DNA from: Haloferax sp. Q22 | GTDB taxonomy: Archaea > Halobacteriota > Halobacteria > Halobacteriales > Haloferacaceae | Assembly (NCBI RefSeq): GCF_001482285.1 | Contig: NZ_LOEP01000030.1 | Coordinates: 14,114 to 78,113, forward strand | DNA length: 64,000 nucleotides | Direction of reading: 5' to 3' | In this document: one piece after another, positions 2,161 through 19,426 of the stretch | Layout: the number at the start of each line of letters is the position of its first letter | How positions within the stretch are numbered: the first letter of the stretch is position 1 | The notes under the pieces: generated by a model | What the model was told of the DNA's origin: nothing | Database searches by the model: none | Seen by the model: the letters and a program-made list of their open reading frames with translations, nothing else | Position numbers and translations under genes: made by a program

Positions 2161-2208
2161 ATGTACGCACCGCAAGACAATCGGTGTGGAACGATACCGA
2201 ACACATGA
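2161..2208 (+). CDS. possible 15-residue leader peptide
   Basis: An ATG at 2161, placed right for a leaderless start, opens a 15-codon frame (MYAPQDNRCGTIPNT) whose TGA overlaps the ATG of the next gene as ATGA (2205-2208). This could couple translation of the first operon gene to a leader peptide. It could equally be chance, with the downstream gene starting from GTG 2184. No homology is known. Confidence 0.25.
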   Translation: MYAPQDNRCGTIPNT

Positions 2209-2453
2209 TCTCCCGCTCAGTCACCGTCGAAGACATCGATGAGTTGTTCCTCAGGTGGAACGACCATCTCAACGCATCGGCCCTCTATCGGCAAGCCCTC
2301 CGCGACGAGATGCAACTTCGCGACGTTGAGCCGCACGAACTCCGCGCACAACTCTCCGAGGCGCGTGAGTTGGGCTACTCGCTCGATGAGATTGCAACCA
2401 TGACGAGTCGCTACGCCGACCTCCAAGCGCTCGTGTACGACCACACCGAGTGA
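2184..2453 (+). CDS. small hypothetical protein, first gene of secretion operon
   Basis: This encodes 89 residues from GTG 2184, or 82 from ATG 2205; the ATG overlaps the stop of a short upstream frame and is slightly preferred. It is predicted to be almost entirely helical and charged, with two helices around residues 15-50 and 55-85 (LRDEMQLRDVEPHELRAQL). It has no membrane segment. It ends seven bases before the next gene. A regulatory or accessory role in the secretion operon is an inference from position only. Confidence 0.6.
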   Translation: MWNDTEHMISRSVTVEDIDELFLRWNDHLNASALYRQALRDEMQLRDVEPHELRAQLSEARELGYSLDEIATMTSRYADLQALVYDHTE

Positions 2454-2457
2454 CCTC

Positions 2458-2871
2458 ATGTCTGACTCACACTCCCCTACTGACGCTCGCTCCACCGACC
2501 AGCGACGGCCCTCCCGATCCATCCTCCGACACGTCGCAATCGGAAGCGTCCTGTTCACGATCGCTGCTGTCCAGCCAGTTGCCGCACAAGACAGCGTGGT
2601 CTGCAGCGCTGAGAAATTGCCGGGGATGGTCGAGGGCTTCTTCCAGATTACGACGACACTCGGCTTCATTGGGTTAGCAGTCATCTGGCAGGCCGACTCC
2701 CTCGCTGAGATCTTCACCGCCAGCCCCGAACAGAAAAAGCGACTCAAAGTCCACAAGCGCGCAGCACTCAAATCCGCCCTCATCTTGGCGGTGCTCGGCC
2801 CGCTGTACACCGTCGTAGCGTCGATTATGGGGCTCCCACTCGGGGACTGCGTGAACCTCACTCCCTGGTAA
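2458..2871 (+). CDS. VirB2-like pilin candidate, two-TM secreted protein
   Basis: This 137-residue protein has a basic N-terminus followed by a hydrophobic signal segment ending VAAQ (about residues 28-44). The mature part has two membrane helices (about 65-80 and 105-125), separated by a short charged loop KKRLKVHKR. Small proteins with a long signal and two transmembrane helices at the start of type IV secretion operons are usually the pilin (VirB2/TrbC). Cysteines at about 50 and 131 of the mature part could pair outside the cell. The assignment rests on size, topology and operon position. Confidence 0.5.
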   Translation: MSDSHSPTDARSTDQRRPSRSILRHVAIGSVLFTIAAVQPVAAQDSVVCSAEKLPGMVEGFFQITTTLGFIGLAVIWQADSLAEIFTASPEQKKRLKVHKRAALKSALILAVLGPLYTVVASIMGLPLGDCVNLTPW

Positions 2872-2900
2872 GCGCCCCACCAATCCACCTTTGCCCTCCC

Positions 2901-4637
2901 ATGAAGCATCGAGTACCCTCCGTACTGGTAGCCGCGTTGCTCGTGTCGAGTTCCATTATCGGCCTCGCCACGGCACAGCCCCCGAGACCAGGGACTGAGA
3001 CAAACGGCCTCACGGAAAACGAGTCGGCAACGCTCTGGTCTCGCGATAGCGACCGCTACGTCAGCCAACAGGCCTACCAGCAGCAGTACGGCGACGACCG
3101 AACGGCACTCCACCAACTCGCCAACGGGACTGACATTACGTTCACGCGCCCGCCGGCGACGGCCGCAACGTGGACGCGCAACGACTTCGCTGATCTCGAC
3201 GCCGGCGGGCCCGACACGTCGACGTACCCGCCTCATGCGTCACTCGAAGATGGGACGTTCATCGACGATGCGCACGCGACGATTTTCGCAGTCACCCCAT
3301 CGACGCGTGGCCATCTCGATGCAGGTGAGACACCCCTCTATATCGCTCCTAACGGGACAGTTCGTGGCCTCGTCGATTATCGTGTTCGCGTTCCAACCGG
3401 GAACGAAACGGGCAATCAGACCGTCGACTGGGCACTCGTCTCTCACGAGATTGAGAACACCCGTCTGAAAATCGATGGCATCACCGTTGCCTCGACTGCT
3501 GGCACTCACACGCCAGAATTACAGTATCACACCACTCACTCGTGGAGCGCGAATCTCACGCTCGAAGCGACCATCTCTGTCCGCCTCAAGAAGACCGTCG
3601 AGACGACGGTTGGTGGCGAATCCGAGGCAACAGTCAACTACCGGACGGAGACACGAACCGTCTCAGATACACTCGATGCCGAGATTTACGACCTCGCGGC
3701 GTACCCCTACTACGCGCAGTACCCGAACGGGGATACTGGCGTCGCGATTTTCCAGTCCCGGCCGTGGCAGGGCTATACGCTCACCGACGATGAGACCTCC
3801 AGAGTCCGTGGTGTGTGGCGGTTCTACACCGCTCGCAACACGAACTGGGACACACTCGTTACGTCGACCGGGACGTCGACAACTACGGAACAGTCGGATG
3901 CGATTCCCGTGAGGGTTCACGCGTATCCCTCGCAGATCGGGCCGCGAGCAGAGCCCGTTCGTGATGGACCGGATATCATCGACACGTGGGGGGCTGACCG
4001 GGCGTCACCCCGTGAGACGATCGGCGAGAACGTGACTGTCGAAGTCGTCAACCAGTCGTACACGCCCACGTACGGGCTGGCCGTCCGTGCAGAGTCCGTC
4101 GACCGGGAGGCGCTTCGGGTAGGCGGGATCGTTCGCGGCGTGAATGCCACGATTGTCGACCCCCAAGTCGGGTCGGCGCGACAGCTTCGCGAGAGTAACC
4201 TCTCTGTTGAGCTCGTTTCGCAGACGACGTCGAACGCGACGCTTCGAGTTGAGTTGCGCGATAACCAGACGGGTGCGCCAATCGCGTCGAATGGGAGTGA
4301 CCGACAGTACCCGATTGGCGGGCCGTCACACAGCGGCTACATCACGGTGGGTGACCAGCGCGTTGAGACCAACGAGAGTGGCGTCGCAGTCGTCACACTG
4401 GACGAGCCGGGGATCTACACGGTCCGTTACCACCCCGGCACGTGGCTTGGCCACGACCCAGCATATGTGGGCGACACGGCCTCCGTTCGCTGGCACCCAC
4501 TCGGGACTCTCGACGGCTGGGTTGCGTTCGTATTCGAAGTCGGCTGGCAGGCAATTCCGTTCGTCGTGACGTTCTACGCCGGTCGCCGACTCCTCCGCAT
4601 GTTTGGACCGACAGATAGCGACTACCGAAACCAATGA
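2901..4637 (+). CDS. large secreted, membrane-anchored protein of secretion operon
   Basis: This protein of 578 residues has a cleavable signal peptide (residues 1-26, ending IGLATAQ). A beta-rich, acidic ectodomain of about 500 residues follows, with many N-x-S/T sites, then a C-terminal membrane helix (WVAFVFEVGWQAIPFVVTFY) and a short basic tail. Around residues 455-515 an Ig-like or carboxypeptidase-regulatory-like fold is suggested by ESGVAVVTLDEPGIYTVRYH. It lies between the pilin candidate and a lipoprotein, so it is probably a surface component or adhesin of the apparatus. No bacterial counterpart was recognised. Its last four bases overlap the next gene. Confidence 0.7.
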   Translation: MKHRVPSVLVAALLVSSSIIGLATAQPPRPGTETNGLTENESATLWSRDSDRYVSQQAYQQQYGDDRTALHQLANGTDITFTRPPATAATWTRNDFADLDAGGPDTSTYPPHASLEDGTFIDDAHATIFAVTPSTRGHLDAGETPLYIAPNGTVRGLVDYRVRVPTGNETGNQTVDWALVSHEIENTRLKIDGITVASTAGTHTPELQYHTTHSWSANLTLEATISVRLKKTVETTVGGESEATVNYRTETRTVSDTLDAEIYDLAAYPYYAQYPNGDTGVAIFQSRPWQGYTLTDDETSRVRGVWRFYTARNTNWDTLVTSTGTSTTTEQSDAIPVRVHAYPSQIGPRAEPVRDGPDIIDTWGADRASPRETIGENVTVEVVNQSYTPTYGLAVRAESVDREALRVGGIVRGVNATIVDPQVGSARQLRESNLSVELVSQTTSNATLRVELRDNQTGAPIASNGSDRQYPIGGPSHSGYITVGDQRVETNESGVAVVTLDEPGIYTVRYHPGTWLGHDPAYVGDTASVRWHPLGTLDGWVAFVFEVGWQAIPFVVTFYAGRRLLRMFGPTDSDYRNQ

Positions 4638-5476
4638 TTCCAACCGATTCACCGCTTGATAGACGTACCGTCCTTCGAACCGTTGGCGGGGCCGCGCTCG
4701 CCAGCGTTGCCGGCTGCCTCGATGGTAGCCGTAACTCGGGCACAACGACGCCCGACCAGACATCGGCGACGACCGAGCGTGCTGGTCCCCTCTCACGCAT
4801 CGCTGTTGAGGGGCAAGCCATCGTTGTGGAAGTTGATGCTGACGCACCCGTCGAACAGGTGAACCTCATTCAGCCGAATGGGGAACTCTTCGGGAGACGT
4901 GGGCTTGCCGCCGGCGCACGACAGGTTTCGTTCGAAATCGGGACTGCCTACGAGCCCGGTGAGTACCGTGTCGTCGCGTTGGATGGTGACGAAACTGTTG
5001 CTGAGGGTTCTCTCGAGATTAGCCCTCAGATTGAGATTCAGGACGTTGGGCTGTTTCGAAATGTCCCGGATAAGCCGTGGGACGAGGTCTATGGAGATAC
5101 TGAGACAGACCGTCTCAAAAACGGTGAAGCAGTAGTCACCGTGGAGAATCATGGAACAGGTCCTGACGCAGTTGTTGAATTGATATTTGCTGAAGACGTT
5201 CCAAATCCTATTTCGGACCCTCGTGGGAGTGGAATGTACGAAACTGAACAAGTCGTTGTTGCGCCGGGAGAGACAGTTGACCTGTTCAGTAACTCATTCC
5301 CATTCGGTTCAGAATCAGAGAAAGGCATGGGTTGTTCCTCTGAGGGGAACTCTGGACAATTTAGAACCATTATTGAGACCCGAGTTGATGCAGATCAAGT
5401 CTCGAAGTCGTTCGATGTGACGTACTCTGGGTCCAGCAGTATGAGTGAATGTGAGGTCACTATCACGGAGGCCTGA
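4634..5476 (+). CDS. Tat-exported lipoprotein
   Basis: This encodes 280 residues. The N-terminus carries a twin-arginine signal with lipobox: DRRTVLRTVGGAALASVAGC, with the lipid-modified Cys at about residue 28. A Thr/Ser-rich linker and a beta-rich extracellular domain follow, with Ig-like strands around residues 60-120. It overlaps the preceding gene by four bases (ATGA) and is followed closely by the VirB6-like gene. Lipoproteins in type IV secretion operons often stabilise the channel (VirB7-like). This one is far larger, so the analogy is only positional. Confidence 0.72.
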   Translation: MIPTDSPLDRRTVLRTVGGAALASVAGCLDGSRNSGTTTPDQTSATTERAGPLSRIAVEGQAIVVEVDADAPVEQVNLIQPNGELFGRRGLAAGARQVSFEIGTAYEPGEYRVVALDGDETVAEGSLEISPQIEIQDVGLFRNVPDKPWDEVYGDTETDRLKNGEAVVTVENHGTGPDAVVELIFAEDVPNPISDPRGSGMYETEQVVVAPGETVDLFSNSFPFGSESEKGMGCSSEGNSGQFRTIIETRVDADQVSKSFDVTYSGSSSMSECEVTITEA

Positions 5477-5479
5477 CTA

Positions 5480-6541
5480 ATGGTTGACTTAATCGATGTC
5501 GTACTAGAAGGGTTCAAAGACATCGTTGAGTGGATTATCTCTTCGTTCATGGAGGGTTTGCGGTCTGGATACCGAACGTTGTCTGAGGGCATGTTTGGAA
5601 CCCCGACGCCTCAGACCGATGGTGTGTTCATCTTTGGTGATCCAACCAATACGCCTTGGCCAGCGATTCACGATGGACTCATTGGTGGCGAAATAACGCT
5701 CATTGCACTCTTATTGCTCATAATGAGTGTCCAGGGCCGTCATACGATCCGAATATTCAATATCGGTAGTGCATACGAAGCACGAAAAACCAAGAAAACT
5801 GCCTGGGTCGGTGCCGTCTTGATTATCTCTTGGTACTGGATTAGTACCCTCTCACTATTCCTTATTGATGGATTCACCATCGCTCTACTGCCGGATGTCT
5901 CTTCAGTATCCACGGCGATGCTGCGCTTTCTAGGGGGTTCCATCACCAACCCGAGCTTAGGCCTGCTGTTCGCTTTTCTGGGTGGTGTTTCTATGTGGGC
6001 CCTGGAAGCGGTGTTCTACATTCGGACAATTCTCCTCTTCGTCTATCTGTATGGGATGCCGATCGCATTCGCTCTCACCTACGGAAACATCCCAGTTGTC
6101 TCGGATGTTGCAATGGGATTCGCTAAACGCTTCGTCCCGTTGGCTGTTCTTCCACTTCCAGCTGCAATAATATTCAAGGGATACGATCTCTTGTACGTTG
6201 GAGCGTCGCTAACACCTGATTCAGCGTTTCTCAGCTATCTCGTCTCTGTATCTCTTCCACTCATCTCACTCTATGTGACGTGGAAGACGTTCACGTACGC
6301 GACACCCCTCACCGCGAAGGTGATTGGTGGTGCAACGCGAGGCGCAGCCCTCGTCGGCGGCGTCGCAGCCGGCGCGTATGTCGGTGGTGCTGGCGTTGCG
6401 ACGACTGCCGCCCGCTGGGGGCCGAAAGCCGCCGCCGGCCAAGCCCTCGCCCAGCGAGCAGCCGCACAGCGTGACTCGACTGATTACAGCGACGGACTGC
6501 CATCGTACCGGCGGACCGAAAACGAACCTCGAACCCGCTAA
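5480..6541 (+). CDS. VirB6/TrbL-like polytopic membrane protein
   Basis: This 353-residue protein has about seven membrane helices between residues 70 and 270. A cytoplasm- or surface-facing N-terminal amphipathic stretch precedes them, and a Gly/Ala-rich tail (GGATRGAALVGGVAAGAYVG) follows, ending in charged residues. This topology, with a long Ala/Gly-rich C-terminal tail, is typical of VirB6/TrbL channel proteins. It sits directly before the VirB3/VirB4-like genes. AT content rises within 5480-6280 compared with the flanking genes. The role as inner channel component is inferred. Confidence 0.6.
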   Translation: MVDLIDVVLEGFKDIVEWIISSFMEGLRSGYRTLSEGMFGTPTPQTDGVFIFGDPTNTPWPAIHDGLIGGEITLIALLLLIMSVQGRHTIRIFNIGSAYEARKTKKTAWVGAVLIISWYWISTLSLFLIDGFTIALLPDVSSVSTAMLRFLGGSITNPSLGLLFAFLGGVSMWALEAVFYIRTILLFVYLYGMPIAFALTYGNIPVVSDVAMGFAKRFVPLAVLPLPAAIIFKGYDLLYVGASLTPDSAFLSYLVSVSLPLISLYVTWKTFTYATPLTAKVIGGATRGAALVGGVAAGAYVGGAGVATTAARWGPKAAAGQALAQRAAAQRDSTDYSDGLPSYRRTENEPRTR

Positions 6542-6543
6542 CT

Positions 6544-7665
6544 ATGTCGACAGATCAAGACACAGCCGCTCGGCGCATCATGGACCAGTTCGGCGAAGCG
6601 AGTCGCATCCCCTACCTCAATATCGAAGAGGGTGACGTCGGTATCCTCATCGCTCTCCCCATCTGTGGGTTGCTCCTCGCCGGCCTCACGGGCATTGAAT
6701 CACTCGCCGTCCCGCTTATCGCAAGCGGCCTCGGGATGGGCGCGGCCATCGTCTACGTCACCCCCGACCATCTGAACGCGTGGACCTGGACGAAAGACGT
6801 CTATCGATACGCCAAACGGCCCCGGATTACGCTGAGTGCGCCAGAGCACCCTGACGGCCAAACGAACGAGACCGTGCGCAACGAGGGCGGACTCGCGAAC
6901 TACACGCCATTCACACCGGACGAGCGAACCCAAGACCTCACGAATATCGAGCGAGCGTGGCCCGGCGCCGGCGCGATTCAGCGGACTGACGGCGCGATGG
7001 AGGCGTTCATCGAAATCGACCCGGGGAACATGGACTTCGCGATGGCCGACGACTGGGCCCAACTTCAGGATGCAGGCGCCGAGTTCGCCAACAAAGAACT
7101 CGACTCGAAGCTCAAATTCCACGCAACAACCCGGTCATTCCCGGTCGAACAGATCACCGAGACGATCGAGGAGCGACTCACCGACGAAGACGTCACACAG
7201 AACCCAATCTTCCGGGAACTCCTCGAGGAGTATCGGGAGACGCGGCCTAAAGAGATGCGTGACCGCGGCATTCAGCAGGTTCGATACTATATCGGCGTGG
7301 AAGTCTCGCCACTCGAAGTCTACGACCGATACCGTGACGAGGGAACGCCGGCTGAAAAGCTGACGCAGTTCCCCGTGATTGGCATTCTTTTCAACCCGTT
7401 CGTCACACGACGAGAGGACCTCTCCGACGTCGAACGGCGCGCCCAGATGTTCGAGAAGCTGGACGACCGGATCGCAGACGTCCGTTCCGAGTTCATCCAG
7501 CAGGCCTCCGGCTGGTCTGCCCACCGACTCAGCACGGTCGAGTTGTTCGTTCTGAACATGGACTTCTGGAACGGCGAGGAACACGATTTCGAGACCGAAG
7601 CAGACGTAATTCGCGAACAGCCGATTCTCGGTCGCTCACGCCGGGAGGAGGCGTTCGATGCGTAA
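6544..7665 (+). CDS. VirB3/PrgI-like membrane protein of T4SS
   Basis: This protein of 373 residues has two adjacent membrane helices near the N-terminus (about residues 35-75, GILIALPICGLLLAGLTGIE and following). A soluble alpha/beta region runs to the end. The N-terminal arrangement resembles PrgI/VirB3 subunits. The soluble part has the mixed strand-helix pattern of VirB4 N-terminal domains, as in actinobacterial SCO6880-type proteins. Its stop overlaps the start of the VirB4 gene by eight bases, so translation is coupled. It probably anchors the ATPase to the membrane. Confidence 0.6.
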   Translation: MSTDQDTAARRIMDQFGEASRIPYLNIEEGDVGILIALPICGLLLAGLTGIESLAVPLIASGLGMGAAIVYVTPDHLNAWTWTKDVYRYAKRPRITLSAPEHPDGQTNETVRNEGGLANYTPFTPDERTQDLTNIERAWPGAGAIQRTDGAMEAFIEIDPGNMDFAMADDWAQLQDAGAEFANKELDSKLKFHATTRSFPVEQITETIEERLTDEDVTQNPIFRELLEEYRETRPKEMRDRGIQQVRYYIGVEVSPLEVYDRYRDEGTPAEKLTQFPVIGILFNPFVTRREDLSDVERRAQMFEKLDDRIADVRSEFIQQASGWSAHRLSTVELFVLNMDFWNGEEHDFETEADVIREQPILGRSRREEAFDA

Positions 7666-9862
7666 CCTCCCGCTGCAGGCGAGTCGTGATATTCTCACGC
7701 AACTCACCCAGTGGGCTCAACAGCCGACATCCCCCGAAGGTGCAGCATTCTATCTGGGGACTATCGTGGTACTCGGCGTCGGCGGGACAGCCCTCTGGCA
7801 GCGGTACCGCACCGACGACGAGCCGGAAGTCGACTTTTCGGATGTCCTCGACGAGGAAACTCTCGAAGCCGGCGAGGCAGAAGGCCAACTCCTCGACGAC
7901 ATCTCGGAGTCACACAAGACGGCGACAGCACCGGCGGCAATCGAATGGGAGACGCGAGCCGCCCGTGTCGGTGAGCAATGGACGACGACGCTGTACATCG
8001 CTGATTACGCCGACTACCCGAATGACGGCTACTTGAGTGACCTCTTCGAGTTGACCGACGTCGAGTTCGACCTGACGGCGCACATTACACCGAAGAACCA
8101 GCAACGCGCGCGGAACGAACTACAGGATATTGCGGACGACCTGCAGGTCGACGCCGATTTAGAACAGAGCGTCCGGAGTGAGTACCTCCAAGAGCGAGCC
8201 AACGAGGCAGCGGCGACGTACAAGGCCGTCGAGAGTGGTGCGAGTGTGTTCGACCAAGGGCTATTCGTCACCGTCCGCGCCGACGACACGGACGACCTCC
8301 AAGACGCCGTCAGAGCAGTCAAAAGCGCGCTCCGTGACGAACCGGCGAATCTCACGCCGAAGACGGCTATCTGCCGGCAGGACCTCGCGCTCCAGTCCGC
8401 CGCCCCAATCGGCGACAACGTCTTCGGCCGGGAGTCGATTGCCCTCGGTGGCGCTGTGGGCTCGCTTCTGGCGTCGCCACACAACGCGACGATTCTCGAA
8501 GAAGGCGGCGTCGAGTTCGGAATCCACAAGGACAACCAGAGTCCGGTCGTCATCGACCCGTTCGCCCGCGATAACGGTTATGCGATGTTTACTGTCGGCG
8601 ACACCGGCTCTGGCAAATCGTTCGGTGCGAAAGAGAACTTCATCCGGTCGATCGAGCAGAGCAAGGACCGCATCGGCATCATTCTCGAACCGCTCAACAA
8701 CTGGGCGGGCGTCTCCGAAGCGCTCGATGCCAAGCGAATTACCGTCGGTGGGACGCTCGGACTAAACCCGCTCGAAATCCGCCAGACGCCCGAACACGTC
8801 CAGCGGGCGATGGGTGAAGACGCGAGTCCGTTCAACGAGAAACTCGACGACGCGATGAGCTTCCTGACGAATTTCTTCGCTCTCCGCGGTATCTCACTTG
8901 GCGACCGCCGAACGACGCTCGAACTTGGACTCAGACAGGCCTACGAGCGTCATGGCATTACTGATGATATCACGACACACGGCAACCCGAGCCCGACGAT
9001 TCGAGACATGTTGGACGTCTTCGAAGAAATGGTCGACGACCCCGAGTCGTTCGTCGTCCGGTCGGATGCGGAAGCTGAGAAACTTAGCGACGATGCGACG
9101 TGGTTGATCGATCAACTGCGGCCCTTCGAAGAAGCGGGCCGCTACGCGAACCTCGGGAAGGAATCGGAGTTCGACATCCGTGACGAGAAAGTCATCTACC
9201 TCGACCTCGCCCAGCAGGAGGGGAGCGTCGACAGCAGTACGGCGCTGACGATGCAGTTGCTCATCTCGCTCGTCTACGAGCGAGCGAAAGAGACGGACAA
9301 AGAGGTCGTGTTCGTCATCGATGAAGCGCGGTACATCATGCAGGACGCCGCGAGTCTGGCGTTCCTCGAAACAGTGTTCCGACACCACCGCCACCACGAT
9401 CTCTCGATTCGCCTCGTTACTCAGACCGTCGACGAGTTCTTCGAACACGCTGAAAGTGAGGCTATCCTCGACCAGTGTGCTGTCAAGCAGTTCCATCGCT
9501 TGGATGGGATGGACAAGGAATGGGCCGACGAGTTCGGCCTGAATCACGCCCAGATGCGGTACGTACAGGACGCGGTGCCCGGGAACGAAGACGCTGGTTT
9601 CTCCGAGGCGCTTGTCGGCGTCGACGGCGAGTGGCGCGGTATCAGAGTCGAAGCAATGCCCAAAGAGAAGGAAGTCATCGACTTTGACCCGACCGAGCAG
9701 CGCCGGGCGTCGCTGCCCGGAGCTGGTGGGTCGGCGGTCTCTGAGGATATTGAGACCTTTCGGACGGAGTTAGCGCAGCAAGCAAACGGTGAGTCACAAG
9801 ACATGCAGACTGATTCAACAGCAACTGACAACGGCCAGCTTGGAGGTACCGACGATGTCTGA
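7658..9862 (+). CDS. VirB4/TraC-type secretion ATPase
   Basis: This 734-residue protein is the motor ATPase of the apparatus. One membrane helix lies at about residues 28-45. A VirB4 N-terminal-like region follows, then a HerA/FtsK-type ATPase core with Walker A GDTGSGKS (about 313-321) and Walker B VVFVIDEARY (about 549-558). The segment after Walker B has VTQTVDEFF, matching the glutamine-containing sensor motif of VirB4/TraC ATPases. Both neighbours overlap it (8 bases each), so it is part of one translational unit with the VirB3-like and VirD4-like proteins. Confidence 0.88.
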   Translation: MRNLPLQASRDILTQLTQWAQQPTSPEGAAFYLGTIVVLGVGGTALWQRYRTDDEPEVDFSDVLDEETLEAGEAEGQLLDDISESHKTATAPAAIEWETRAARVGEQWTTTLYIADYADYPNDGYLSDLFELTDVEFDLTAHITPKNQQRARNELQDIADDLQVDADLEQSVRSEYLQERANEAAATYKAVESGASVFDQGLFVTVRADDTDDLQDAVRAVKSALRDEPANLTPKTAICRQDLALQSAAPIGDNVFGRESIALGGAVGSLLASPHNATILEEGGVEFGIHKDNQSPVVIDPFARDNGYAMFTVGDTGSGKSFGAKENFIRSIEQSKDRIGIILEPLNNWAGVSEALDAKRITVGGTLGLNPLEIRQTPEHVQRAMGEDASPFNEKLDDAMSFLTNFFALRGISLGDRRTTLELGLRQAYERHGITDDITTHGNPSPTIRDMLDVFEEMVDDPESFVVRSDAEAEKLSDDATWLIDQLRPFEEAGRYANLGKESEFDIRDEKVIYLDLAQQEGSVDSSTALTMQLLISLVYERAKETDKEVVFVIDEARYIMQDAASLAFLETVFRHHRHHDLSIRLVTQTVDEFFEHAESEAILDQCAVKQFHRLDGMDKEWADEFGLNHAQMRYVQDAVPGNEDAGFSEALVGVDGEWRGIRVEAMPKEKEVIDFDPTEQRRASLPGAGGSAVSEDIETFRTELAQQANGESQDMQTDSTATDNGQLGGTDDV

Positions 9863-12800
9863 GCGTGCGTATCTTCGCGTGACGCCCACCTCAGAGGAAC
9901 TTACTCCTCGTGGCATCCCGCAGACCCTTGAGAGTCTCCACAAATTGACCCCTGACAGCTCGGGTCTGCGGTCGAAACTCAACCCGTTTACATCCGCGAC
10001 CCCACCGCGCTTTGAGTTCCTTGCGCTTAGCACGGGACAAGATGCGCCGGTTGAGTTCTACTATGGCGCTGACGACTATCTCGGAACACTCGAAGAGCGG
10101 CTTCGGTCGATCTATCCGAAGACGTTCGACATCGAGCGTGTCGAGGTGGACGTCGCGTCGAAGCTGATTCACCCGGTCGCATTGTCTCACGAGGAATTTG
10201 TCGAGCGGTACCAGCAGGGTGACCTGCAGTATGAGTTCTCCGACGACGAACAGTATTCGGCTGCAGATGTCGACGCCGGCACAGTGCCTGACGGCGGCAC
10301 AACCACAACACGTGAGTCTGGGGATTCACCGACGGACGCTACCGACGAGATGGGTGGCAGAACGGCGGACGGACTGGTGTCGATTGGAGAGACAGTTGTC
10401 GAACTTGAAACGACTGACTCCCTCGCTGACGAGGCTTCGCCCACGTCGGTCGAGAAGCCGACAGTGACCGCAGACGGGACGATTCTCGCCCGCCCCGCGG
10501 CCGACGCCGTCTCACCACGGGGCGTGCGGTGGTGTGGGTCGGCAGTTCGGAAGCAAGACTGGATGTCGTCGTTGACACCGCTGACGGCGACGCCCGACGA
10601 GAGCACGCTGCCGGCGGTCGACGAACCGGGAGCTGTGCTTGCGTCGCTGATCGACCACCTGAATGATGCACGCGAACCGCTCGCGTTCCAAGTCGTGTTT
10701 CAGCGCCGGGAGAGCTGGCAAGCGGATGCGGAACTCCGCAAAGAGGACTTGAATGATGGACGGGATACGCTGTCGCAGAAGATCCTTGGCGACCTGCTCG
10801 ACCCCGAACTGGAGTACGAACGTCGCACCCGTGACGAGTTGAGTGACATCGTCGTCAAGCGGCTTGACGCGATTGATGCGGTCAACCCCAAGCGCTCGTA
10901 CACGACGAATATCCGGGCGATTGGTGTACCAACGAGTGAGGCTGGCCGCGACGCCCTTGATGACCGCCTGTCGTCACTCGCGCCGGTCTTTGACCCACTC
11001 GACGGCCCGTTCTACGAGATCGAAGCGGCGCGACTTCGAGACCGTGGCTTCCGACAATCGAAGAAAGAACAAAACGCGCGAGCAGCGCTCCAGCGACTCC
11101 TCTCGCGAGAGGTAACGACTGGACGTGGTAAGACCCGGCCGGAGTTGGTTCTCTGTGGGGCCGAGCTTGCGAACTTCGTGGTTGTCCCTTCGTCGGAACG
11201 ATTGACAATGGAGGGTTCTCGTGGGACGCGTGCTGAGCAACAGAGTCGGAACCCGCTTGCCCGTCCGAATCCGGATCTCATGAGCGAGTTCCGTGAGGGC
11301 ATGGCAATCGGCTACGCGCTTGATGAGACTGGTGAAGCAGAGGAGCAACCGACGCGTCTTCCTCCCGGACTGCTGCCGACACACTATGGCCGGTTTGGGA
11401 CGACTGGGGCCGGTAAGTCCAAGGCACAGATCAATGAACTCCTCTCACTCTACGAGACGACGACTGGGCCGTCGGTTCTCATCGAACCAAAGGGCGACGG
11501 CATGGCGGAGAACTACATGCGTGCGCATGCTGCGCGTTTCGGGTTGGACGACCTCAGAGAGAATGTCATTTACTTCTCTCTTCCGGACGTCCTTCCCGGG
11601 TTCTCGTTTTTTAATCTCGAACCGTCGCTCGAAAACGGGCTCCGGCGAGAAGATGCGATCCAGCGTAAGGCCGACCATTACGAGGAGATTCTAAAACTCG
11701 TTATGGGGGTTGACCGCTACGAGCGGGCGACAGTCGCGCCGGGATTGATTAAGTCGCTGATCAAAGTGTTGTTTGACGAGACGCATGGTCGCGAAAATGG
11801 CCAGTATCGCGAGTCAGCGGACTACTTCGCTCATCGGCAGTTAGAGTCTGTGCTTGACCAACTTTGGCAAGCAGGGCCACCTCAGCCAGATCTGAGTGCT
11901 GCCCCGCAATCGAGTGACGAGGCTGTCTCGCGGTCACTCCGACGACAGTTACAGGCAGACAAGACGACCTTCTCGAATGTGTTGGGTGGTGTCGGCAATC
12001 GCCTTTCAGTTATTTCGGATGACACACACCTGCGTCGAATCTTCAACAACACCGAGCCACAGTTTGATTTCCGCGATGTCATCGACGACGACACGGTGAT
12101 TCTCTTTGATCTGGGTGATCTCCGCGAGGATGCCGCTCGCGTCATGACCGGTGTGATTCTGACCAACCTCGAGGACGCCCTGAAAGAAGAGAACCAGGAT
12201 GTCGGTAAGCGGCCGGACGATTACGTGGTTAATCTCTTGATTGATGAGGCAGCGTCGGTTGCTGTTTCGGACGTCATGAATACACTACTCGAGCAAGGGC
12301 GGAGTTTCCGGCTATCAGTCGGGCTCTCGATGCAGTTCCCCGAGCAAATGAAAGCAGAAGGCGGACGGCGCGCCTACCTCAACGTTCTCAACAATATCGG
12401 GAGTCCGATTGTGGGAAAGATCAACGTTGACCGTGAGCTCGCTAGGGCGATGGCTCACGAGGAAATGGACCCAACAGCGTTCGCAAATCGGATTCGGTCA
12501 CTTCCGCGTGGTGAGTGGATTGCGAATCTTCCAAGTCCGATCTTCGGTGAGACTGGGCCGTATCCGTTCAGTCTCGCTCCGCTTCCGATTCCGGATGGGC
12601 ATCCTGAGAGCAACCGCCCTCTTACCGAGAGTGAGGAGTCTCGATTTAGTGAGACACTCAGTCGGATGCAGGGCCACGTTGACGAGACGTACGGCGTGAC
12701 CACGACTGAGGCACCGACGGCAGAACTCCCCGACAAACTCAGTACCACGCTTGACATTACCGATGGGGAACTCGACACGGCTCTTGCGAAAGTCGTTCGA

Positions 12801-14198
12801 GCGGTGCAACTTCGGCTGTCCGAACGTGAGACGAACGGCTGGGTTCCAGTCAAAACCGTTGATGATGAACTCCGCCGTCTGTGTGACGAATCGGGTGGTG
12901 ATGCCCTGACGTACGACGAACTATCGACGATTCGCCAGCGCTCTCACTTCCTTGAAACGACGGTTCATCTCGATCAAGACGAACTCGTGATTCGTCTCAC
13001 TGAAGCGGGCGAAGCGGTTGCTACCCCTGATACTGGGACAGTCCAATCTGCTGGTAGTTCGAAGCATGACGCTGCTCTCGCGCAAATCGAAGCAGAACTG
13101 ACGACCCATGGCTGTACAGTATCTGTCCTCAGCCAAGACGGGAGCGAGAAACCTGATGGGCGTGCGACGCACCCAGCGTTTGACGCTCCGTTTGCCATCG
13201 AGGTCGAGACGACAACGCCAGGGAAGCCTGCAAAAGTCCTCACGAACCTCCGCAAAGCACAGGAGGCGGGGGAAATCCCGATGTTTGTTGTTCGGGCTGG
13301 TGAGCCGGAACCCTACTGGGCAGAACGTGTCGAACAGGTGCTGTCGCCGCCGCTTCGTGAACTCCAGTCAGGGGACACGCGGTTCTATACGACTGATTCA
13401 ACGATTTCGTTCAATGGTGGAGCGAGCGAGGAGGGTGGTCTGACGGCACTTCGACCCGTGTCGCCTGAGAGCACACAGACGGTCTGGTCACGAGTCGATG
13501 GGTGCCTTGTTTTGGAAGACGGTGCTGGGGGTGAACTGCTTCGAGTTGAGTCATTAGACGAAATCTCGAAGAGTCGACTGCCTGCGGTTTACAGCTATGA
13601 TTCGGTGGCCGATGAGTACGTCGTCTACGCGGAGGGCGAGCAGTATGTCTACGACTCGAAAGAGGCGTTTACTGCTGACTGGACTAAGCTCAAGCGGCCA
13701 TTTGTCCCTGAAGTCGAACTGCCGTATCCAGGATTCAGTAGTGAGCAGTATCTCATCGTCATTCTTCGGAACGACGGTGACGCAGTAATCTATCGGGACG
13801 GCACAGTACGGCCCTTGAGTGAACTCTCGGAGCTGGATCTCGTCGCACAGCCAACCCAATCCAATACCGAAGCGGCCGAAAGAGCTGTAGCCCCCGGATC
13901 AGACGAGACTCTGGTTGATGTGTCGGAGCTTGCAGACGACCCTGATGCTGTTGTGGGCCGCTTCGCAGAGGTGTTCCTCCGTGAGACAGCCCACGGATCT
14001 GTCTCCTCTGAACGGGTTTACAACTGCTATCAGTCGTGGGTGACTGAACAGGGTCTTTCACCGGACTCAAAGCGGTGGTTCACACGCCGGCTGAGACAGC
14101 ACGTTGAGTTCGATAGTACGGTCAAGAAAGAAGGGGATGCGACAACTCGCCATTACGACGGGCTCGCCCTCACTCAGGAGGAATTGTCTAATGAATGA
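9855..14198 (+). CDS. VirD4/TraD-like coupling ATPase with C-terminal nuclease-like and winged-helix regions
   Basis: This protein has 1447 residues from the ATG at 9855, which overlaps the VirB4 stop. An N-terminal region of about 500 residues precedes the ATPase core: Walker A GTTGAGKS (about 515-522) and Walker B NLLIDEAAS (about 793-801), followed by LSMQFPEQ, a Gln-containing sensor as in TraD/TraG. Beyond the core, about residues 1085-1150 contain PDGRATHPAFDAPFAIEVE followed by KPAKVLTNLRKA. This resembles a PD-(D/E)XK nuclease fold, though a canonical Lys after the acidic pair is not obvious. Residues about 1370-1430 resemble the winged helix at the end of D5/P4-type primases (NCYQSWVTEQGLSPDSKRWF). 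Ordinary VirD4 proteins are about half this length. Confidence 0.85.
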   Translation: MSERAYLRVTPTSEELTPRGIPQTLESLHKLTPDSSGLRSKLNPFTSATPPRFEFLALSTGQDAPVEFYYGADDYLGTLEERLRSIYPKTFDIERVEVDVASKLIHPVALSHEEFVERYQQGDLQYEFSDDEQYSAADVDAGTVPDGGTTTTRESGDSPTDATDEMGGRTADGLVSIGETVVELETTDSLADEASPTSVEKPTVTADGTILARPAADAVSPRGVRWCGSAVRKQDWMSSLTPLTATPDESTLPAVDEPGAVLASLIDHLNDAREPLAFQVVFQRRESWQADAELRKEDLNDGRDTLSQKILGDLLDPELEYERRTRDELSDIVVKRLDAIDAVNPKRSYTTNIRAIGVPTSEAGRDALDDRLSSLAPVFDPLDGPFYEIEAARLRDRGFRQSKKEQNARAALQRLLSREVTTGRGKTRPELVLCGAELANFVVVPSSERLTMEGSRGTRAEQQSRNPLARPNPDLMSEFREGMAIGYALDETGEAEEQPTRLPPGLLPTHYGRFGTTGAGKSKAQINELLSLYETTTGPSVLIEPKGDGMAENYMRAHAARFGLDDLRENVIYFSLPDVLPGFSFFNLEPSLENGLRREDAIQRKADHYEEILKLVMGVDRYERATVAPGLIKSLIKVLFDETHGRENGQYRESADYFAHRQLESVLDQLWQAGPPQPDLSAAPQSSDEAVSRSLRRQLQADKTTFSNVLGGVGNRLSVISDDTHLRRIFNNTEPQFDFRDVIDDDTVILFDLGDLREDAARVMTGVILTNLEDALKEENQDVGKRPDDYVVNLLIDEAASVAVSDVMNTLLEQGRSFRLSVGLSMQFPEQMKAEGGRRAYLNVLNNIGSPIVGKINVDRELARAMAHEEMDPTAFANRIRSLPRGEWIANLPSPIFGETGPYPFSLAPLPIPDGHPESNRPLTESEESRFSETLSRMQGHVDETYGVTTTEAPTAELPDKLSTTLDITDGELDTALAKVVRAVQLRLSERETNGWVPVKTVDDELRRLCDESGGDALTYDELSTIRQRSHFLETTVHLDQDELVIRLTEAGEAVATPDTGTVQSAGSSKHDAALAQIEAELTTHGCTVSVLSQDGSEKPDGRATHPAFDAPFAIEVETTTPGKPAKVLTNLRKAQEAGEIPMFVVRAGEPEPYWAERVEQVLSPPLRELQSGDTRFYTTDSTISFNGGASEEGGLTALRPVSPESTQTVWSRVDGCLVLEDGAGGELLRVESLDEISKSRLPAVYSYDSVADEYVVYAEGEQYVYDSKEAFTADWTKLKRPFVPEVELPYPGFSSEQYLIVILRNDGDAVIYRDGTVRPLSELSELDLVAQPTQSNTEAAERAVAPGSDETLVDVSELADDPDAVVGRFAEVFLRETAHGSVSSERVYNCYQSWVTEQGLSPDSKRWFTRRLRQHVEFDSTVKKEGDATTRHYDGLALTQEELSNE

Positions 14199-14523
14199 TA
14201 CTGGTCTGTCAACGTTTGTACCCGGTCAGACGAACAACGGCCGATTCAACAAGAAATCGGCCGAAGGAGTGTTCAGACGGATGGTTACGACAGGTTACGA
14301 TAGTCTCGCCCAGAGTTACGACAGCCGTTACGATAGAATTCGGATAATAGCGGGACTGAACGGCGTATCTTGGACAGATTCGGATTGTCGGTTACGACAG
14401 AAACCGACTAGTATAGACAGGGGGGACCCCGTCGGAACTGGGCATTGTCCAAGTGAGCAGACGACACAGACATATTTGGACTCTGAAATGACTGCGAGTC
14501 AGCGAGGAACAACGAATGTGTGA
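14191..14523 (+). CDS. doubtful 110-residue frame containing the iteron array
   Basis: A frame from ATG 14191 overlaps the VirD4 stop (ATGAATGA) and the following primase start, so its position fits an operon gene. However, its middle is built from five DNA repeats of GTTACGA(C/T)AG read in more than one codon phase. The composition is low-complexity and basic, unlike the neighbours. It may be a real small DNA-binding peptide, but a mainly non-coding site is equally likely. No family was recognised. Confidence 0.3.
   Translation: MNDTGLSTFVPGQTNNGRFNKKSAEGVFRRMVTTGYDSLAQSYDSRYDRIRIIAGLNGVSWTDSDCRLRQKPTSIDRGDPVGTGHCPSEQTTQTYLDSEMTASQRGTTNV
14284..14400 (+). repeat. iteron array, five copies of GTTACGA(C/T)AG
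   Basis: Direct repeats lie at 14284-14293, 14294-14303, 14315-14324, 14327-14336 and 14391-14400. The last is embedded in TGTCGGTTACGACA, an inverted repeat. The copies fall in different codon phases, so selection seems to act on DNA rather than protein. Just downstream, 14416-14433 holds a GGGG-A-CCCC core flanked by GAC/GTC that could form a stem. The place is between the coupling ATPase and a primase gene, suggesting an origin of transfer, a replication origin or an operator. Confidence 0.7.
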
Positions 14524-15711
14524 TGAAATTGACCTCGATATAGACCAGCTGCCACCCGAACTTCGCGAGCGTGAGCAGTGGGTTTGCTGGCGGAGTGAGA
14601 TGCGAGATGACAAAGCGACGAAGGTCCCCGTCAACCCTGCAACTGGCGGCTTCGGTTCGGCAACTGATTCTGTGACATGGTCTGATCTCAATACTGCGGT
14701 TGCGGCTGTCGAGTCAGACGACGCTGATGGGATTGGGTTTGTGTTCACCGATGACGACCCGTTTGTCGGTGTGGATTTAGACGACTGTCGAGACCCCGAG
14801 ACGGGTACGATTGACGACGACGCACAGGCGATAATCACACAGCTAGATTCCTACACGGAGGTGTCGCCATCGGGAACGGGTTTCCACACCCTCGTTGTGG
14901 GTGAGCTTCCCGCAGGACGGAATCGCCGTGGAGGCGTTGAGTGCTACGATACGGCGCGCTTCTTCACAGTAACCGGTCTCACGTTGCGGGGACGCCAACA
15001 GAGATCACACGTCGACAGGATGCACTTGTCGACATCCATCGTGAATACGTCCAGTCCGATACTGCGTCGACAACGGAGCCACTGGGCTCAACACCACCCG
15101 CAGCAGCACGTGATGACGCGAGTGAGCCTGCCCTCAATGACGAGGTTGTGCTGACAAAAGCGAGGGAGGCAGCGAACGGTGAGAAGTTCGACCGGTTGTG
15201 GCGGGGGCAGACAAGTGGGTATGAGAGCCACTCGGAGGCAGATATGGCACTCTGCTGTCTACTCGCGTTCTGGACGGGTGGGAACCACCCCCAGATGGAC
15301 CGCCTCTTTCGAGATTCGGGGCTGTATCGCGAGAAATGGGACGAAGTCCACTATGCAGACGGGTCGACATACGGTGAGAAGACACTTGAACGAGCAATCC
15401 AGCAGACATCGGAGTTCTACGACCCAGATACGCAGCCTCGTGAGGACCACGAGACTACGATGGAACAGAGTGTGGGAACGCAGCCAACGCAGAACACGGC
15501 GTATCTCGCCGAAAAGAACCAGGTGTTGACTGAGCGAGTTGAAACGCTTGAGGCGACCCTCGCAGAAAAACAGGCGTACATTGAGGAGTTAGAAGCGACT
15601 GTTGACCGGCTTGAGCAGCGTGTCGAGGCAGCAGCACCGCGTGACCAGGATGAAGATCGTGACACGAAATCTGCGTCAGTGTGGGAGCGAACACGATCGT
15701 GGTTGAAATGA
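14516..15711 (+). pseudogene. NrS-1-like primase-polymerase, frameshifted
   Basis: Two overlapping frames form one protein of about 395 residues. The first (14516 to about 14980) is a prim-pol N-terminal domain with REQWVCW, VGVDLDDC (metal-binding acidic pair), SPSGTGFHTLV and YDTARFFTVTG. The second picks up at 14980 with HVAGTPTEITRR and continues into the helical domain (SHSEADMALCCLLAFWTGG, MDRLFRDSGL, REKWDEVH, YGEKTLERAI) of NrS-1-type polymerases. It ends in a coiled coil (about 15480-15640). One base is missing near 14977-14980 relative to a continuous frame. It probably primed plasmid DNA; it is either inactivated or affected by a sequencing indel. Confidence 0.8.
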
Positions 15712-15765
15712 GACCGGGTCACCGCAACATGGGCTGATAGTGAGATACTCTCGCTGACGACACGA

Positions 15766-15820
15766 CCCTGTTGAAATTCTTCGACCTTGACAGAATCCGC
15801 GTGACACAGACAGAGGGTGA
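15766..15820 (+). mobile_element. solo transposon end related to the MITE at 22039
   Basis: The sequence from CCCTGTTGAAATTCTTC through GTGACACAGACAGAGGG resembles over about 50 bases the reverse complement of the right end of the 22039-22505 element. No partner end or transposase is close by, so this looks like an abandoned end. The rest of 15712-15959 shows no gene; a TATA-like stretch lies before the MOSC gene. Confidence 0.5.
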
Positions 15821-15959
15821 GTTCAGCAAGACTTCGATGTTCGATTCAGGCGACCAGCGATGAAACAGCCGAAAGGTAGGTGTGCAATCTTCCCACAGTA
15901 TACTTTTCAAGACCACTCTCACCAGAGTCTTTATTCTGTATTAAACACACATCGCACAC

Positions 15960-16451
15960 ATGACCGGGAGTGGCACTATCGAGCGGATTTTTATCGCCCC
16001 AGAAGCCGAAGCGAAGATGGAAGAACAGACTGACGTTGAAGCAGTTGCCGGACAGGGGCTCCGAGGAGATCGCTACTTTAGCGAGATTGAGACGGGGACC
16101 TTTGTCGGGTGGGAATCAGATGAGGAACGCCACGATGGGTACGACCTCACGTTGATTGAGCAAGAGGCTGTAACAGCAATCGAACGGGAATCGGGAATCA
16201 AACTCGAACCGGGAGAACACCGACGAAACATCGAAACCCGTGATGTTGCACTCAACCACCTCGTCGGACAACGATTCCGAGTCGGTGACGCCATCTGTCG
16301 AGGGAATCGACTGTGCGAACCCTGTAATCATCTTCAACGCATCACTCAGGATGGCGTATTGCAGGCGCTAACTCACCGAGGTGGGCTCCGGGCAGATATT
16401 ATTGAAGATGGGATTATCCGCCCCGGAGATGTAATCGAACCGATCGAATAA
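15960..16451 (+). CDS. MOSC domain protein
   Basis: This 163-residue protein is a stand-alone MOSC domain, the C-terminal domain of molybdenum cofactor sulfurases. Such proteins handle sulfur on a conserved cysteine and are linked to molybdenum enzymes. Supporting motifs are the early GLRGDRYF, LTLIEQEAV, HRRNIETR and the cysteine-bearing CRGNRLCEPC with HRGGLRADI near the end. The length is typical. It is a short single-domain gene facing the PLP enzyme convergently; a functional link through sulfur metabolism is possible but only inferred. Confidence 0.88.
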   Translation: MTGSGTIERIFIAPEAEAKMEEQTDVEAVAGQGLRGDRYFSEIETGTFVGWESDEERHDGYDLTLIEQEAVTAIERESGIKLEPGEHRRNIETRDVALNHLVGQRFRVGDAICRGNRLCEPCNHLQRITQDGVLQALTHRGGLRADIIEDGIIRPGDVIEPIE

Positions 16452-16557
16452 TCCTCGTGTAGAAACCGTCCGTCTTCCCGCTTGCAGCTGCCATATCTGG
16501 CGGACAACGGTCACGCTTTCGAATCGGGACGTCAGAACGAAAAACAGAACGTGTGCG

Positions 16558-17742
16558 CTACGGTAGCGCCCTCCGGAGGTCTTCACAAAGGTCGTCAGCG
16601 TCTTCAAGGCCAACGGATACTCGAACCAACGTCTCGGGAACCTCCGCCGAATCTTCACTTCGACTGAATTCGTCTGGAAGCATTAGTGACGGTACCTCAA
16701 TAAGGCTCTCAACCCCACCGAGACTCGCTCCCGGCGTGAAAATCTCCAGTCCCTCGATAAACGCCTCAAGTTCGATGGGAGTACCATCGAACTCGAAGGA
16801 CAGCATCCCGCTGTACCCCGACATCTGCTCACTCGCAAGGTCATGTTGCGGGTGGCTCTCAAGCCCCGGATAGTAGACACGAGTGACTCGATCGTGGTTT
16901 TCGAGGAACCTGGCAACTGCCATCGCGTTCTTCTCGTGATGTTCCATCCGCGCGGGCAATGTCTTGATGCCTCGAGCAACGAGATAGCAGTCGAACGGCG
17001 ACAGCATATTCCCAAACCCAACCCGCTGTGCGAACGACAATTGCTCGAACACCCTACTGTCGTCGGTGATAACGGCACCGCCGATCGAGTCAGAATGCCC
17101 GTTAAGGTACTTGGTGGTGCTGTGAACGACAATATCGGCACCCAGTTCGAGCGGGGCCTGGTAGTACGGACTTGCAAAGGTACTGTCTACAGCGAACAGG
17201 GCAGCGTGGTCATCGGCAAGATCGGCTATCGCTTGGATATCGCACAACCTAATCAAAGGATTCGATGGTGTTTCTGCCCAGATCAGGTCAGTATCCGCGT
17301 TGACCGCATCGGCGACGTTATCGGGGTCACGAGCGTCAACGAAGTCGATGTCAACGCCGAGATGTCCGGCCATGTGTTCCGTGAGCAGTTTTTCGGTTCC
17401 GCTGTAGATGGTGTCCGAAGAGACAACATGACCTCCTGGGGGGACGAGTGACAACACCGTCGTCGATGTGGCGGCCATTCCGGAGGCGAACGCTAGTGCA
17501 TGTTCACCGCCTTCAAGGCGAGCTAACTGCTCTTCGAGGGCTGCCCGCGTCGGATTGCTCTCTCGCGAATAGTCGTGTTCATTGGCATCCTCCTCACTGG
17601 CCCACTTGAACGTTGTCGAGAGGTGGATCGGCGAGACGACGTCGTTCGTTCCATCTTTGTGAGAATGCGTCTCGGTTTCTGCTGCGCCGACGGCGGTGGT
17701 TGCGAATCGGTTCTTGCTGGACCGGTCATCGTGTCGTGTCAT
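16558..17742 (-). CDS. PLP-dependent trans-sulfuration enzyme (cystathionine gamma-synthase/lyase family)
   Basis: This protein of 394 residues has the full Cys/Met metabolism PLP fold. Motifs include YSRESNPTRAALE, HALAFASGMAA, AETPSNP, the VDSTFASP strand and the PLP lysine in VVHSTTKYLNGHSD (Lys 211). Near the C-terminus are SLGGVESLIE and RVSVGLED. Members make or cleave cystathionine, or act on O-acetylhomoserine or methionine; the reaction cannot be fixed from sequence alone. It faces the MOSC gene and has its own upstream region of about 430 bases. Confidence 0.9.
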   Translation of the reverse strand: MTRHDDRSSKNRFATTAVGAAETETHSHKDGTNDVVSPIHLSTTFKWASEEDANEHDYSRESNPTRAALEEQLARLEGGEHALAFASGMAATSTTVLSLVPPGGHVVSSDTIYSGTEKLLTEHMAGHLGVDIDFVDARDPDNVADAVNADTDLIWAETPSNPLIRLCDIQAIADLADDHAALFAVDSTFASPYYQAPLELGADIVVHSTTKYLNGHSDSIGGAVITDDSRVFEQLSFAQRVGFGNMLSPFDCYLVARGIKTLPARMEHHEKNAMAVARFLENHDRVTRVYYPGLESHPQHDLASEQMSGYSGMLSFEFDGTPIELEAFIEGLEIFTPGASLGGVESLIEVPSLMLPDEFSRSEDSAEVPETLVRVSVGLEDADDLCEDLRRALP

Positions 17743-18178
17743 AGGTTACTCACTACAAGACCCACTCGGACGGTGGACATATATCTGATACAATTGGTCA
17801 CAGTTTCGGAGTTTGGGGTCTGGTGCGTGTCTTATTTTCACGCCAACTGAATTTGATTAGGCTCTCTCCTTGTGGTTTTTTTTGAATTTAGCACGGTGAG
17901 AGAACTTTAAAAAGATTTCTGTGTGACATAAAATCAGAATCGGCAGACTGCTCCTATCTCATCGTTGTTGTGCTTGAACAGAAGGCACAACACGTCCATC
18001 CTCCGAGACTGTGAATTGGTGGTTCATAGGTGTTCTCTGTAGCGGTAGAGGGTTGTAGAGTTATAGGCGAGACTGGCCAGAGACGAACCCTGAACTAGGC
18101 ACAGGCTAGCGGTCTATAGCAAATGGTGTGCTCCCAGAAGGGAAGTCTCTTATTCACATTGGAGAGTAAACTGTAGTG
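17743..18178. other. intergenic stretch, no gene seen
   Basis: These 436 bases separate divergent genes. The part 17850-17940 is AT-rich with ACTTTAAAAAG, a plausible TATA element for the rightward transcript. Nothing else supported was seen. Confidence 0.5.
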
Positions 18179-18499
18179 ATGTATCTTGTCATGTTCCGCC
18201 TTGACCCGGGGGAGTACGATGCAGAGTTTCATGAGTTGAATGACGCGATACAAGTGGCTGCCGAGGACACAGAGGGGTATCTGAGCAAGCGGACGTGGCA
18301 TGCCTCTGAGAGTGAAGAGATTCTCGTCGTGTACTACTGGGAGTCGTTGGATGCGCTTGAGTCGTTTGGCGCAGATTCTGACCACAAAGAGGCAAAACAG
18401 CGATGGACAGAGTGGTACGATGCGTACGAAGTCACCGTTACAGAAGTCGTTGAGGCGTACGGGAGTGGGTTTGGTGACGACGCCGATCCACCCCTATAG
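18179..18499 (+). CDS. ABM-like small dimeric alpha/beta barrel protein
   Basis: This encodes about 106 residues from ATG 18179 (a GTG one codon earlier is less likely). The pattern MYLVMFRLDPG, a helix (AEFHELNDAIQVAAEDTEGY), KRTWHASESEEILVVYYWES, and a second helix ending HKEAKQRW matches the dimeric alpha/beta barrel of antibiotic-biosynthesis-monooxygenase-like proteins. It probably binds a small molecule or haem as a dimer. Substrate and role are unknown. Confidence 0.75.
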   Translation: MYLVMFRLDPGEYDAEFHELNDAIQVAAEDTEGYLSKRTWHASESEEILVVYYWESLDALESFGADSDHKEAKQRWTEWYDAYEVTVTEVVEAYGSGFGDDADPPL

Positions 18500-18568
18500 C
18501 ATCCCGAGCCGATATAACGTCCTCAAAATAGAACGGGCCAGCTGGCAGAGCACTACTCGGTGTCCTAT

Positions 18569-19054: not shown

Positions 19055-19426
19055 CTCCGTTCCCTGGAGGTGATCAGCCGCTCCATCACCTTCCGGTACT
19101 GGTAGATCGTCCGGTAGGGAGGAACCCTCCGGACATAGTTCTATTCATCTCGCCATAATTACTTAAAATTCCTCAAAAAGAATATATCCAGATTAGATTC
19201 AATAATTTCTTCTTAGCTGAATACCACCCGCTAAAATTCCGGTGGACGGCTTAGGCAAAATTTGATGGTGTAATGGCAGTGGGCAAACGTTTTATTCCGA
19301 GACACCCCACAACTGCCGGTATTTCTGATGGTGTAGGCGGAATCAAAGACACAATCACGTGCGACAAAAGCAGGACTCGGTTGTATGATAGGCGTAACCG
19401 CTACACTTTTATTTCGTATGTAGTTT
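19055..19426. other. intergenic, with remnant 5' coding of the peroxiredoxin
   Basis: The part 19055-19150 on the minus strand reads in frame into the peroxiredoxin without a start codon. The rest, 19150-19426, is AT-rich; no gene or clear terminator could be supported. Confidence 0.45.

Follow-up and report, generated by a model that had tools for sequence, protein, structure and literature searches.

A haloarchaeal plasmid-borne type IV secretion operon whose VirD4-type coupling ATPase carries a candidate DNA-processing tail beside a repeat array

An eight-gene transfer operon and its plasmid setting

The window analyzed here is a 64,000-nucleotide stretch of Haloferax sp. Q22 DNA (bases 14114-78113 of the 105-kb contig C24). 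Eight genes in the order A-B-C-D-E-F-virB4-virD4 lie head to tail at 2184-14198, overlapping or nearly touching each other, and are followed by a repeat array, a short conserved core and a primase gene (Table 1). The single overlapping run of transfer genes described in the original prediction was thus confirmed. The survey of gene order that had been proposed along with it recovered the same order at dozens of haloarchaeal loci.

Table 1. Features of the transfer region (window coordinates; VirD4 residues are numbered from 9849, 1449 codons)
Feature	Coordinates	Strand	Description
Gene A	2184..2453	+	89 aa, first gene of the operon; position conserved in 38 of 80 loci
Gene B	2458..2871	+	137 aa; signal peptide (..PVAAQ), VirB2/TedC-like pilin topology (alignment, hydropathy)
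Gene C	2901..4637	+	578 aa; large beta-rich ectodomain between a signal peptide and a C-terminal membrane helix
Gene D	4634..5476	+	280 aa, Tat-type lipoprotein (RRTVLRT...ASVAGC)
Gene E	5480..6541	+	VirB6/TrbL-like channel protein (TrbL_3, PF19590, 1.5e-133)
Gene F	6544..7665	+	373 aa; cytosolic part behind two N-terminal membrane helices; VirB3-like only in its position
Gene G (virB4)	7658..9862	+	VirB4-type ATPase, 734 aa
Gene H (virD4)	9849..14198	+	VirD4-type coupling ATPase with long C-terminal tail; likely ATG 9855
First tail winged helix	12729..13028	+	MarR/ORC-like fold by structure comparison (Z 8-9); model residues 45-144
PD-(D/E)XK-like core	13059..13295	+	alpha-beta-beta-beta-alpha-beta, model residues 155-233; D1103, E1118, E1120
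Swappable C-terminal specificity domain (putative)	13716..14195	+	contains RFX-type winged helix 13932-14180 (model residues 446-528)
Repeat array	14284..14400	+	five GTTACGA[C/T]AG at 14284, 14294, 14315, 14327, 14391
Conserved core	14404..14435	+	CCGACTAGTATAGACAGGGGGGACCCCGTCGG, outer bases self-complementary
Primase gene	14516..15711	+	NrS-1-like primase-polymerase (PF22763, 5.6e-32), frame-broken in the window

The predicted gene labels fared differently. Those of the VirB6-like and VirB4 genes were upheld by the PF19590 match of gene E and by the matches of gene G to several NCBIfam VirB4 models (best 5e-36, under the equivalog cut-offs) and to the solved VirB4 structure 4ag5 in the PDB (2.3e-08). 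The VirD4-like label of gene H draws partial support: the best Pfam model, T4SS-DNA_transf, matched weakly (19.2 bits, cut-off 20.1), and close relatives are named conjugal transfer or T4SS DNA-transfer proteins at NCBI. Gene B, predicted to be pilin-like, has a signal peptide and two membrane helices joined by a basic loop, which is a VirB2-like topology; the PDB sequence search gave no match to support the pilin label. The VirB3 label of gene F goes back to its position and its two membrane helices. It was set aside, since neither a profile nor a PDB match was found.

Genes C and D are each kept in 60 loci, gene C at 37-99% identity. The structural model of gene C is poor (pLDDT 55), with parts resembling Ig/FnIII domains. 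A fusexin identity of its ectodomain was considered but gained no support: besides the poor model, the gene C profile gave no PDB sequence match, and no fusexin was among the listed fold matches. A repeat search upstream of the operon revealed nothing notable. In many loci, the exonuclease VII genes xseA/xseB adjoin the operon just upstream (for example, at 31287-32524 of locus L048), and xseA was seen beside the operon in 27 of 80 loci.

The operon region matched a Haloferax lucentense plasmid and H. alexandrinus plasmid pBNX82-4 with 93% and 91% DNA identity, respectively, each over two thirds of the query. The upstream ParA, Orc1/Cdc6, and further backbone genes also matched pBNX82-4. Carried on a Haloferax plasmid backbone, the eight genes encode what looks like a transfer machine of the VirB4/VirB6/VirD4 kind. 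Six complete T4SS plasmids have in common the operon, Orc1, ParA, a TFIIB-like gene, an OB-fold DNA-binding protein and a 115-aa protein. Both the OB-fold protein and an ArdC-like single-stranded DNA-binding/M78 protein form part of the backbone shared by such plasmids (coordinates 42598-43734 in the window and 1504-2433 in L005), and the ArdC-like genes hint at DNA entry in single-stranded form. The window also contains an antitoxin-like and PIN-domain gene pair (21078-22010) and a second PIN-like copy (38797-39468), joined to other sequence at 38797.

The VirB6-like family has three copies in this genome, on contigs C17, C24 and C34. The third VirB-type gene copy (13074-19717 of locus L008, C34) is more divergent and has no adjacent virD4. 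Across Halobacteria, PF19590 is present in 194 of 391 genomes and 64 of 86 genera, and since this channel family occurs in about half of the sampled haloarchaeal genomes, a plasmid typing scheme could be built on it. The window VirB4 matched 280 PLSDB plasmids, including pNRC200-type plasmids of Halobacterium. Almost all VirD4-bearing PLSDB records (178 of 179) are labeled non-mobilizable by MOB-suite, presumably because they contain no relaxase visible to this tool.

The VirD4 tail, the repeat array, and their joint exchange

VirD4 consists of an N-terminal domain, an ATPase core, and a tail of 533 residues. In the AlphaFold model of the tail (pLDDT 77), a winged helix comes first, then a PD-(D/E)XK-like nuclease core and finally a winged helix of RFX type. 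The modeled nuclease core resembles the type IIS restriction enzyme PaqCI (Z 8.8 over 130 residues, rmsd 4.4) and, in Foldseek, Cdn1 (E 0.0098); Foldseek gave no nuclease match at E 0.001 or better. In the model, the acidic residues are located on the second and third strands of the core, and the motif is ExE rather than the usual ExK. The pattern PD-x14-ExE was invariant in 42 of 42 type-1 tails (defined below; 37-94% identical to the window), with P-D at tail positions 186-187, E202 and E204 invariant and K213 (K1129) nearly so. The C-terminal winged helix matched RFX-type DNA-binding domains with Z scores of 11.8 and 11.4. The VirD4 tail thus probably holds a PD-(D/E)XK-like fold with an acidic active site, as modeled, the fold matches being weak. 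A precedent for relaxases of the PD-(D/E)XK type is the MOBC family (PMC6499999, PMC12857230).

Directly after virD4 lies the repeat array, followed by the conserved core and the primase gene. The predicted repeats after the operon are real: the window has five 10-bp copies versus 0.21 expected, a number reached in 0 of 100 shuffles, and GTTACGA[C/T]AG is absent elsewhere in the window and in the rest of the contig. Other loci carry other repeats in the same place (TTACGGCA, TTCCACCC, GTCCAGGC, GGTCAGGG), which we grouped into classes post hoc, after inspecting the data. In the group of the window, the five copies have one orientation and lie at -118, -108, -87, -75 and -11 relative to the core. 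The corresponding positions and orientations are about -176+, -117+, -99-, -69- and -11+ in class I outside the Haloferax group and -179+, -109+, -90-, -61- and -12+ in class II. Repeat positions relative to the core are thus fixed across genera. Of 37 intergenic regions examined, 36 contain the core (consensus AAAACCRACTAGTATAGAACGGGGGGTCCCCGTYGG). At one of its self-complementary pairs, 16 distinct sequences have A-T and 7 have G-C. We consider the repeats a candidate binding array of the RFX-type domain and a candidate transfer site, and the core a candidate nick or primase site.

Comparison of related loci linked the repeats to the end of VirD4. Four pairs of loci with different repeat classes were compared (L080/L083, L095/L154, L092/L096, and L111/L114). 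From the ATPase through the first winged helix to the nuclease core, the VirD4 proteins are mostly 90-100% identical in the first three pairs and 72-95% identical in L111/L114. Identity drops to 9-60% only beyond residue about 1280, in the RFX-type domain. The partial correlation with repeat class was at most 0.06 in every earlier VirD4 segment and +0.56 to +0.77 in all later segments. At the DNA level, the divergent block extended in the four comparisons from about -420 to about +280/+300 around the virD4 stop codon, and ahead of the primase gene identity was back at about 90% (85% for L111/L114). Two control pairs of the same class showed neither a divergent dip nor breakpoints. Clusters of winged helices, derived purely from their sequences, coincided with repeat classes, except for L115 and L096, both of class IV, which were split apart. 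The VirB4 of L114 is just 37% identical to that of the window, yet this locus has the repeats and the nearest winged helix of the class II group.

Because the winged helix adjoins the repeats, one recombination event can move both. When only well-supported tree branches were counted, three independent class I/II swaps were found, which is not significant (p 0.25). On the other hand, breakpoints recur, the five-site layout is fixed, and the repeats are kept even where the winged helices have diverged to about 43% identity; together, these observations argue for a functional pairing. Recognition of the repeat site by VirD4 is thus well supported by comparative sequence data.

A second, larger exchange unit was detected in a survey of 80 loci from named genomes. 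Type 1 VirD4, to which the window belongs, is followed by an NrS-1-like primase-polymerase; type 2 VirD4 has a PriS-like primase together with a primase-associated protein in this place (29 of 29). The 80 loci included none with mixed types. On a tree of gene F and VirB4, the type changes six to seven times, and the motor half of VirD4 switches together with the primase type in 6 of 6 independent pairs (p 0.031). Between Haloferax loci of different type, the operon and the first 450 VirD4 residues are mostly more than 90% identical, and VirD4 identity, starting shortly ahead of the Walker A motif, is down to 28-70%. Type-2 tails contain an invariant D-x14-E-x-E with the same spacing as in type 1. 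However, the tail profiles of the two types aligned over just 37 columns at their start and not over the nuclease-like regions, leaving a common origin of these regions unsupported. In type-2 loci, neither the region behind the primase genes nor that preceding the operon held a consistent repeat array, and the block itself contained no swap cassette. The primase predicted to follow the operon was recovered as a profile match with a broken reading frame. Close relatives have the gene intact, among them L078 with a homologue of 396 aa, and the break in the window may be an assembly error.

The relaxase question and the proposed DNA processing

The original prediction that the operon lacks a recognizable relaxase held: Pfam and NCBIfam profile searches detected no known relaxase in it, and on six complete sister plasmids nothing exceeded the cut-offs of PF03432, PF25227 (Rep-Arvir, a Rep_trans/MOBT-like family; PMC13107129), PF13814 (a MOBC-related profile), PF08751, PF03389, PF07514 or PF01076. 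A scan for HUH motifs found none conserved in the core genes of the six T4SS plasmids, and VirD4 is the only core gene product that resembles a nuclease. The same search extended to the whole genome revealed a single MobA/VirD2-type relaxase on another contig, C7. There, a NikA-like protein, the relaxase, and a TrwB-type coupling protein are encoded in a row on the minus strand (17055-19938 of locus L055). The relaxase has 188 aa and the motif HRDTDHPHAQV, and the 51-kb contig also carries ParA. This cassette might be a mobilizable element that could borrow a T4SS of the window type. PF03432 relaxases were found in 28 of the 391 genomes, and a relaxase was noted earlier on Haloarcula plasmids (PMC6333295). 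Thus, relaxases exist in haloarchaea, are rare and here reside on other elements. Contig C45 (L158) additionally encodes a Rep-Arvir (DUF7845) rolling-circle initiator (E 4e-122).

Archaeal conjugative plasmids without relaxases have already been reported (PMC9905601, PMC12857230), and reviews call their DNA preparation unsolved (PMC12857230, PMC9905601). The absence of a relaxase is therefore a known archaeal puzzle and not new in itself. This qualifies the prediction of a conjugation-like machine without a recognizable relaxase, a description that otherwise fits the operon and the six sister plasmids. The DNA-processing step, which had been called open, is less so, because the coupling protein carries a candidate domain for it. 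Likewise, the suggestion that the machine has its own chemistry gains content from the modeled nuclease-like core and winged helices and from the co-swapped repeats in or near VirD4. As far as the literature examined shows, such a tail with a matched repeat array is undescribed.

We propose that this is a plasmid-borne conjugative T4SS whose coupling ATPase carries its own DNA-processing module, which reads and may cut the transfer site; we regard the chances for and against this model as about even. Through its C-terminal RFX-type winged helix, VirD4 would bind the five repeats beside its own gene, so that the hexameric motor is loaded onto the plasmid that encodes it. The PD-(D/E)XK-like domain may then nick or cut at or near the conserved core. 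As in the protein family, the motor would feed the strand into the VirB4/VirB6 channel, and the adjacent primase, linked to VirD4 in the cassette, might synthesize the complementary strand in the donor or recipient. More tentatively, haloarchaea in general may conjugate without a separate relaxase, with VirD4 reading repeats, cutting, and working with the primase, and with cassette exchange setting specificity. The candidates for relaxase-free DNA preparation come down to one protein, three residues and a 150-bp site, and in Haloferax, a genetically tractable host, the unsolved question becomes directly testable. If pairs of winged helix and repeat set specificity, archaeal genetics could gain from them a loading system that can be retargeted.

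A primase-polymerase gene directly follows the array, and repeats and core could instead be a replication origin or primase operator, with the RFX-type domain starting replication or regulating the primase. This domain is akin to the winged helix of D5-type primase-helicases (the VirD4 tail matches Pox_D5, 4e-05), and the bottom strand of the core agrees with the NrS-1 primase site TTTGGTTA at 6 of 8 positions (PMC8718748). However, the domain is part of a coupling ATPase in a transfer operon and not of a helicase or repressor, and the plasmid itself encodes an Orc1/Cdc6 initiator that is conserved in the six sisters. We consider an origin or operator rather unlikely. The tail might also merely anchor DNA that is prepared by something else: a relaxase acting in trans from another element, one of a novel family, or an Mre11-Rad50-NurA-HerA end-processing machine. 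The NikA/MobA/TrwB cassette on C7 would suit the trans version, and HerA-NurA has been proposed to produce single-stranded DNA in archaea (PMC9905601). An Mre11/Rad50/NurA/HerA-like cluster is indeed encoded about 12 kb before the T4SS operon on the sister plasmid pBNX82-4 (9992-17588 of L042). Yet PF03432 is far rarer than the channel gene (28 versus 194 of the 391 genomes), VirD4 stands alone as nuclease-like among the core genes, and end-processing genes vary between plasmids. A connection of conjugation with plasmid-borne Mre11-Rad50-NurA-HerA or AddAB-like genes was considered and set aside, as these genes look like replaceable cargo. Processing by such other factors thus appears improbable.

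Even less probable, in our judgment, is that the machine serves to take up DNA, to secrete proteins or to load plasmids into vesicles rather than to conjugate. Archaeal Ced and Ted systems import DNA (PMC9905601), and haloarchaeal plasmid vesicles use a VirB4-like ATPase (PMC10818511); however, Ced and Ted are chromosomal and described without VirD4, whereas the full VirB2-like/VirB6/VirB4/VirD4 set on integrase/ParA/Orc1 plasmids fits plasmid export.

Comparison with known systems

The proposed reading of a cis site by VirD4 is closest in logic to Streptomyces TraB/clt, which also uses a hexameric FtsK/HerA-superfamily motor with a C-terminal winged helix. In TraB, this winged helix reads short (8-bp) repeats in a cis site (PMC3583192, PMC5365140), and on pWTY27 the clt site adjoins the tra gene (PMC3583192), just as the haloarchaeal array (repeats of the 7-10 bp type) adjoins the motor gene. 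In contrast to the haloarchaeal system, with its full VirB-type operon and nuclease-like domain, TraB dispenses with both a T4SS channel and a nuclease domain. MOBC relaxases such as pAD1 TraX and CloDF13 MobC have the PD-(D/E)XK-type active site predicted here for the VirD4 tail, and the site bound by TraX consists of five direct repeats at some distance from nic (PMC12857230). However, MOBC is a separate protein, whereas the haloarchaeal nuclease-like domain is part of the coupling ATPase.

Among archaea, the conjugative plasmids of the Sulfolobus pNOB8 group and Thermococcus pT33-3 likewise encode VirB4/VirD4 and no recognizable relaxase (PMC12857230). The haloarchaeal operon goes beyond this set in having genes for VirB6-like, pilin-like and ectodomain proteins, and its VirD4 has the tail of nuclease-like and winged-helix domains. 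Haloarchaeal integrated mobile elements with the fusexin gene fsx1 also carry VirB4 and TraG/VirD4 genes (PMC9259645), but the ectodomain protein encoded by gene C has no fusexin among its sequence matches. In the transjugation of Thermus ICETh1 (TdtA, NurA-like, Tth111II), a DNA pump and a nuclease or restriction enzyme replace the relaxase (PMC5365140). Pump and nuclease are separate genes there, without a T4SS operon, whereas haloarchaeal VirD4 appears to combine both in one protein.
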